DNA of 32,842 nucleotides from Candidatus Saccharimonadota bacterium. GTDB lineage: Bacteria; Patescibacteriota; Saccharimonadia; Saccharimonadales; Saccharimonadaceae. The notes under the pieces are model-generated. The model was not told the DNA's origin, searched no databases, and saw only the letters and a list, made by a program, of their open reading frames with translations. This document shows, in pieces, positions 14 to 2,299 of this stretch. Position 1 is the stretch's first letter; each line of letters starts with the position of its first letter. The translations under genes and the position numbers were made by a program. The DNA is taken from positions 1 to 32,842 of the forward strand of contig JAFUCF010000015.1 of the NCBI GenBank assembly GCA_017459845.1, read 5' to 3'.

Positions 14-2218
14 ATGGAAAGTAAAAACAGCGGTAGTATTTTCTTGAACTACATAATGGGCACTAGATTTTTAAAGCGCTCTAGTTTCCATTATGGAGCT
101 CAAGTGCCTCAAAAACATAGCAGTAGGCTTTTTAAAGCCTTTCTCTTTGTTTCTCTTGGGCTCCTTACCTCCCAATTGTTTATTCATTCCGCTTATGCCG
201 CCTTTTATGTAGATGTTTCTAGTACGGCTTCTGTAAGGCTCACAGAAGCCGGTAGCGATGCTAGTAGCTCTAGCAGTATTAAACCGTCCAGTTCTGGTAC
301 TCTCGGTACCGGTAGCGACGTAGTAACGATAAACACTAACTGTAATGCCGGCTATAATTTATACGTTTCTGCTACCTCTACGGGCAATACTAGACTAAAC
401 CTTTCTGGCGCATCTTCTTCAGAGCTCCAAGATGCAGTAAACTACATCGCTCCGTCTTCCAATGCTCCAACCGCAGAAGGAACTCTAGAAAAAGACACTT
501 GGGGTGTTGGTAAGACTAGCTCTACCTTTGCTGGGCTCCAGGCTTACTCTGCCGATGCTGGGAATTGGACACCGCTTTATACTGCTACTAGTACAGACAT
601 CACTAACGGTATGGCCGGAAGCTCTACTCCTGGCTCTGCCACTCTAACCCACAACGTCTACTATGGCGCTAATATCTCTACCGCTAAAACTCCAGGTACT
701 TATTCTGGTAACGTCCTATATACCGTAATCATGGAAAACGCTTGTACAGAATACACTTTGAAGTTTGATGATGGCGTAGACGATAGCGATACCGAGGCCC
801 AGGCTACCATTACTAGTAACCTCCCTAACGGTATCCCTACTACAGAAACTGGTGGTAAAGGCGAATATCCTAAAGTAATCTTCGGGACTAAAGTAAACCT
901 TTCCCAGTATTCTTCCGCAGACAAAATTAAACGTACTGGCTATACTCTCAAAGGCTGGAAGATTAAAGTAGGAAACGGTACTCCAAGTGAAACAACCTAT
1001 AGCACCACAGAAAACATGGTCTTAGACGATAGCGAAACATCCGAAGTAACTCTTATTGCTCAGTGGGAACCTAATAAGTATACCATCCACTACAATTCTA
1101 ATGCTCCTAGTGGCACTACCGCATCAGGTACCACTGCAGACCAAACAGACCAAGCTTATAATGCTACTACTACACTAAGAGCTAATGGTTTCTCCGTTAC
1201 CGGCTATAACTTCGCTGGTTGGGCCTACACCGCAAATGGTACTAAAGCTTTCGATAGTGCCCAAGCGAGTGTAAGCATTAAGACTTTAGCCGAGAATGCT
1301 AAGCCAAATAGTGTAGTAGATACTAACAATGCTACCATTAACCTATATGCCCTCTGGACTAAAGCTAGCTATACCCTTACCGTTTCTAATGGTAACTCTA
1401 CGGCTATTTCTAGTGTATCTGGCGGTGGTACTAAAACCTATGGTGCTTCTGTAACGGCCTCTTGTACACCAAAATCTGGTTACCATTGTACTGGCTGGAC
1501 AAGTAGTAATATAAGCTTACTCCCAAGTAGTTCAAACGCATCATATACCTTTAATATGCCAGCAGGAGCTGTTACCCTTACCGCCAGCGGCGCTGCTAAT
1601 AGCTTTACTATTTATTACAATTCTAATGGTGGTTCTGGTTCTACCGCCAGTACTACAGCTACCTACGGGCAAAACGTTACTCTAGCCACCAATGCTTTCA
1701 CCGCTCCAAGTGGCAAGAAATTCAAGAGTTGGGGTACAAGCACTAGTGGCGGTACCACCTATTCTAGCGGCCAATCCGGTATCTCCCCAACTACCTTAAA
1801 GTCTAATGTTACTACCGTAAATGGCGGAAGTATTACTCTTTATGCGATTTGGGAAGATGATGTACTAGTATGCTCTGGAGATATTTATCCTACCAGTACC
1901 GTAGGTTGTAAGCTTGCTGATGGCCATACTTGGACATATGGAATGGGTGGCAGAGCTGTACAATGGTTTAACATCCATGGCGGATGCAATTCTGGGTATA
2001 GTTTACCAGACAGAGCAGTTTATGCTAACTTAATTAGCAACTATAGCGGTGGTGGCTTATATAATGCCCTTCATCTCTCCGGCGCTCACGGCTTTTGGTC
2101 TTCTACTGAGAACAATAGCGGCAACGGCGCCTACGTCATGTACGTCAGCAAGTATGGCGCCTCCACGTACGAATACTACTTCGACGAGGACGACGCCCAC
2201 GTGTTATGCTATAAGTAG
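14..2218 (+). CDS. Secreted surface protein with InlB-type repeats and C-type-lectin-like tail
   Basis: The gene encodes 734 residues and starts at an ATG with a strong AGGAGG site 5 nt upstream. The N-terminus is basic, then a hydrophobic segment (about 42-60) ends in an AYA cleavage site near residue 62, so it is probably exported by Sec. Residues about 246-352, 354-450, 452-526 and 529-615 are Listeria-Bacteroides/InlB B-type repeats, recognisable by the YTIxYNSN starts, GYxFxGW middles and LYAxW ends. Residues about 617-734 resemble the Fib_succ_major/DUF1566 type of C-type lectin fold (FWSSTE at 694-699, C-terminal LCYK). From residue 700 the codons abruptly become C-ending, which fits a retroelement-diversified ligand-binding tail. 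No LPXTG anchor is seen. A role as host-contact adhesin is inferred only. Its promoter lies outside the window. Confidence 0.85.
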   Translation: MESKNSGSIFLNYIMGTRFLKRSSFHYGAQVPQKHSSRLFKAFLFVSLGLLTSQLFIHSAYAAFYVDVSSTASVRLTEAGSDASSSSSIKPSSSGTLGTGSDVVTINTNCNAGYNLYVSATSTGNTRLNLSGASSSELQDAVNYIAPSSNAPTAEGTLEKDTWGVGKTSSTFAGLQAYSADAGNWTPLYTATSTDITNGMAGSSTPGSATLTHNVYYGANISTAKTPGTYSGNVLYTVIMENACTEYTLKFDDGVDDSDTEAQATITSNLPNGIPTTETGGKGEYPKVIFGTKVNLSQYSSADKIKRTGYTLKGWKIKVGNGTPSETTYSTTENMVLDDSETSEVTLIAQWEPNKYTIHYNSNAPSGTTASGTTADQTDQAYNATTTLRANGFSVTGYNFAGWAYTANGTKAFDSAQASVSIKTLAENAKPNSVVDTNNATINLYALWTKASYTLTVSNGNSTAISSVSGGGTKTYGASVTASCTPKSGYHCTGWTSSNISLLPSSSNASYTFNMPAGAVTLTASGAANSFTIYYNSNGGSGSTASTTATYGQNVTLATNAFTAPSGKKFKSWGTSTSGGTTYSSGQSGISPTTLKSNVTTVNGGSITLYAIWEDDVLVCSGDIYPTSTVGCKLADGHTWTYGMGGRAVQWFNIHGGCNSGYSLPDRAVYANLISNYSGGGLYNALHLSGAHGFWSSTENNSGNGAYVMYVSKYGASTYEYYFDEDDAHVLCYK
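2111..2218 (+). other. Putative DGR variable region at the 3' end of the surface-protein gene
   Basis: From codon 700 to the stop, 24 of 35 sense codons end in C (AAC, GGC, TAC, GTC, GAC, GCC). In the preceding roughly 85 codons of the same domain only about a quarter do. NNC-rich codons at the end of a C-type-lectin-like domain are what adenine mutagenesis of AAC codons in a template repeat would leave. The position (last about 35 codons, after FWSSTE) matches known variable regions. No reverse transcriptase or template repeat lies in this window, so the call is an inference. Confidence 0.5.
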
Positions 2219-2249
2219 CCGCTTCGCGTCTTCTAAGCTGCCTCACTCG

Positions 2250-2277
2250 GATACAGGAAAGTGAACTTTCCTGTATC
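2250..2277 (+). terminator. Perfect 12-bp hairpin with TGAA loop after the surface-protein gene
   Basis: GATACAGGAAAG (2250-2261) pairs perfectly with CTTTCCTGTATC (2266-2277) around the loop TGAA. It begins 31 bp after the stop codon. The downstream sequence is only partly T-rich, so it is a mediocre intrinsic terminator. A short perfect stem with a 4-nt loop just behind a variable region is also the form of the DNA hairpin used in DGR target recognition. Both readings are open. Confidence 0.55.
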
Positions 2278-2299
2278 TCTTGTTTCGTTGTTCGGTATG

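Follow-up and report, generated by a model that had tools for sequence, protein, structure and literature searches.

In a diversity-generating retroelement (DGR), a reverse transcriptase (RT) copies the RNA of a template repeat (TR) and misincorporates bases opposite its adenines. The resulting cDNA replaces the homologous end of a target gene, the variable region (VR); AAC codons become NNC codons, and the protein fold and the 3' end of the gene stay fixed. In CPR bacteria, DGRs are overrepresented and have C-lectin targets (PMC8144416). Contig-based surveys overlook remote targets, and a large survey was unable to detect targets far from the RT (PMC8144416). Hairpins of the Bordetella phage BPP-1 type have GC-rich stems of 7-10 bp and 4-nt GRNA loops (PMC3240598). 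The DNA analysed here (the window, 32,842 nt) spans all of contig C2 in a Saccharibacteria-type genome of 737 kb in 41 contigs. An initial annotation, made from the letters of the window alone, had read the tail of a surface protein gene as a likely DGR target. That reading is favoured by an RT with a TR/VR pair in the same genome, a homologous domain, variation confined to the tail, and templates in relatives; against it, a template matching the tail was not found.

The window gene and its C-terminal tail

The features of the window gene are as follows.

14..2218, + strand: surface-protein gene of 734 aa (open reading frame and translation; Pfam Flg_new and Flg_new_2)
1079..1588, + strand: repeat region with Flg_new (aa 356-419) and Flg_new_2 (aa 453-525) (Pfam; residues converted to coordinates)
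1904..2215, + strand: C-terminal C-lectin-like domain of the Lcl_C / Fib_succ_major type (hhalign to the target domains on contigs C15 and C17)
2110..2202, + strand: hypervariable core, putative VR, NNC-rich (64% identity to the paralogue on contig C6; codon bias)
2203..2290, + strand: conserved gene 3' end and flank, with a putative IMH-like boundary (85/88 bases as in C6)
2250..2277, no strand: inverted repeat of 13 bp without mismatches, spacer of 2 nt, downstream of the stop codon; terminator or target hairpin

The product has a signal-peptide-like N-terminus, followed by InlB/Flg_new repeats and the C-lectin-like domain, and is presumably a surface adhesin that may contact the host. The C-terminal domain searched alone gave no Pfam match. 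It was aligned by hhalign to the C15 and C17 target domains of the same genome with 97.9% probability, and Lcl_C is matched by 9 of 13 members of the family (Pfam). By this homology, the tail forms the C-terminal end of a domain of the C-lectin type. A structure prediction of the protein from its single sequence reached a pLDDT of 36 and was discarded.

After the motif FWSSTE, 24 of 35 codons (69%) end in C, compared with 27% in the rest of the gene and 28% in all window genes pooled (binomial p = 3.6e-7). The abrupt switch noted in the initial annotation is thus real, although its figure of about a quarter for the codons just before the tail was slightly low (33% in the preceding 36 codons). 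When codon order was shuffled, 3 of 5000 shuffles gave an equally C-rich stretch of 35 codons. Among the 8053 stretches of this length in the genes of the window, no other reaches 24 and the next highest has 23. The shift is by itself suggestive but not decisive, because of that other stretch.

The window gene was aligned with its paralogue on C6. The two genes are identical at 17/17 positions from 2093 to 2109, at 56/87 (64%) from 2110 to 2202, and at 85/88 (97%) from 2203 to 2290. Variation is therefore sharply bounded and limited to the tail, and the 3' boundary after the putative VR is conserved. The interval proposed at first (2090-2218) has to be narrowed to a core of about 2110-2202, as bases 2090-2109 are conserved with C6. 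Differences by codon position 1, 2, and 3 number 12, 13, and 6 in the core (6/31 at the third position) and 11, 12, and 15 upstream. The two tails are also unequal in length, by two codons, a difference that mutagenesis of adenines does not yield by itself.

The retroelement on contig C15 and its target family

A complete DGR, consisting of RT, TR, and target, was found on contig C15.

C15:1574-2731: RT (matches Pfam RVT_1 and a PHROG reverse transcriptase family)
C15:3121-2867 (approximate): TR, an antisense copy of the target 3' end (TR/VR alignment)
Ending at C15:442: target gene, source of the VR paired with the C15 TR

The TR and VR differ at 18 positions over 253 bp, all 18 at template adenines, the pattern by which DGRs are defined. 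The expectation of a DGR RT elsewhere in the genome was thereby borne out, and this RT is the only one found in the genome. The arrangement is typical, since in the genus the TR commonly follows the RT and runs antisense to it. A 313-aa reading frame lies between target and RT (C15:606-1547). It matched no Pfam, NCBIfam, or PHROG family, and is a possible accessory gene (Avd or similar).

About 16 distinct proteins with such tails are encoded in the genome, with the identical C19/C40 stretches described below counted once. We grouped the tails into four classes and one single:

Class I: C15, C17a, C17b, C8
Class II: C4, C33, C34
Class III: C5, C19/C40, C16, C31, C20, C9b
Class IV: the window gene and its one paralogue, C6
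Single tail outside the classes: C9a

Across the family, 43-69% of codons in the tails end in C versus 23-45% upstream. When the other class I targets were compared with the C15 TR, 25/36, 22/33, and 28/39 differences (C17 twice and C8, respectively) fell at TR adenines. In four class III copies, all sites with three or more states fall on codon position 1 or 2. A class I target on C17 (L012:2582-5101) has two Fib_succ_major domains in tandem, and the C15-type tail ends the second only.

Templates in related genomes and the search for a class IV template

Within the genus, 84 of the 147 genomes carry a related RT, and several of these have two to four. An adenine-specific TR/VR pair was found at 53 of 60 further RT loci, and likewise in most of an earlier set. 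Two of these genomes bear directly on the window tail. The TR adjoining the RT of G067 (C10) encodes the same tail class (WSSTENN...VVCYR), and all 17 of its differences from a VR on another contig are at adenines. In G074 (C73), the TR adjoining the RT encodes WSSTQNN...LLCYK and differs from a VR ending in LLCYK, again on another contig, with 15/17 differences at adenines; this TR and its VR are likewise unequal in length. These templates therefore establish the window tail class as a genuine DGR target class whose targets can be remote. A further relative, G158, has a TR-like asparagine-rich reading frame beside an RT on its contig C19 (L124:3016-3390). Its targets are probably remote, as no VR for it was found within the stretch examined.

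Differences between the window tail and C6 are enriched where the TRs of relatives have adenine (20/47 sites versus 11/73, p = 0.0009). When either tail was compared directly with these TRs, the adenine bias was weak (p 0.04-0.19), which would be expected if the true template has diverged but does not amount to confirmation. The inverted repeat at 2250-2277 was not counted as evidence for a DGR, because a similar hairpin was sought behind the class IV VRs of relatives and was absent.

The C15 TR was rejected as the template of the window tail; the tail that it encodes (...VRCIASS) is of another class, and the 3' flanks do not match. A class IV TR was sought in the assembly by DNA similarity, by a pattern letting any base derive from adenine, and by the WSST motif with mismatches, and was not found. 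With the TR of a relative as bait, the C15 TR and class III VRs were recovered, and a class IV TR was not. A template repeat matching the tail except at adenines, the second expectation of the initial annotation, was thus not found in this fragmented assembly of 97% completeness. The tail DNA had no match in 150 relatives. Viral contigs searched with the tail flank, the window protein, and the C15 RT yielded no relative, and those searched with the G067 RT yielded distant RTs alone (32-37% identity).

The assembly is broken repeatedly at target genes, within which lie the ends of several contigs. Contigs C2 (window:1-60) and C5 (L043:1-60) open on one and the same sequence from an identical first base, and 117/120 bases agree where the signal peptide is encoded; here the assembly broke at a gene start present in more than one copy. 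The end of C19 (L044, C19:9500-12486) is identical over 2987 bp to part of C40 (L045, C40:1139-4125) in opposite orientation; the shared stretch includes a class III target tail and is an unmerged overlap, a strain variant, or a long repeat. A repeat-borne cassette is easily missed because the assembly breaks at target genes, as at the common start of C2 and C5, and it is plausible that the class IV cassette is absent through assembly gaps.

Origin of the tail and comparison with known systems

The stretch 2110-2202 is probably the VR of a DGR target, a judgement that spans past and present diversification. The core would have been diversified by copying of a template with misincorporation at its adenines. 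The genome would then contain, or until recently have contained, a class IV template, accompanied or not by a second RT, and this template may lie in an unassembled repeat.

Template loss is the main rival to a missing cassette. Under it, a DGR once diversified the tail, the template has since been lost, and ordinary mutation and selection now act on an orphan VR. The failed template search in a nearly complete assembly, the single RT, and, relative to C6, a length offset of two codons and some changes at third positions are consistent with such a fossil, but the breaks at target genes speak for a cassette that was missed, and the flanks of the VR are nearly identical in the two paralogues whereas the core is not. 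We regard a fossil VR as possible but somewhat improbable. Both readings share a DGR origin, so the high probability given to that origin overlaps with this rival. It is very improbable that the tail has no link to a DGR and is an ordinary lectin-like domain shaped by diversifying selection or paralogue recombination with a chance codon shift: tails could be exchanged among paralogues and an almost equally C-rich stretch occurs elsewhere in the window, but an intact-looking DGR with homologous targets is present in the same genome, two related genomes carry templates for this tail class, and the variation stops at both ends of the core and concentrates at sites where templates have adenine.

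A wider proposal, which we hold only tentatively, is that this tiny episymbiont genome keeps about 16 dispersed DGR-type surface proteins whose tails, of four or more classes, are diversified in trans by a single multi-template retroelement or a few of them, as a multi-template hypervariable host-contact system. If the proteins do touch the host cell, as we infer, variation in the host range of an episymbiont could be tested by sequencing a few gene tails.

The window target resembles the BPP-1 DGR (Mtd target) in its putative C-terminal VR of the C-lectin type, its fixed 3' end, and the inverted repeat that follows. The repeat here differs from the BPP-1 hairpin in its 13-bp stem and 2-nt spacer, and is not common to the class IV VRs of relatives. 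In the DGRs of G067 (C10) and G074 (C73), from the same genus, RT and template are assembled, whereas the window genome shows class IV targets only. With the Patescibacteria/CPR DGRs (clade 2, Roux et al., 2021, PMC8144416), the system shares a CPR host, an RT-based cassette, a C-terminal C-lectin VR, and adenine-specific TR/VR differences (here on C15). DGRs in CPR bacteria are already known, and the interest of this genome lies mainly in the size and dispersion of its target family, since about 16 genes in only 737 kb belong to one family and mostly lie at a distance from the RT. Unlike the described CPR systems (PMC8144416), one small genome here holds about 16 dispersed targets of several tail classes, and the window target lies far from the RT.
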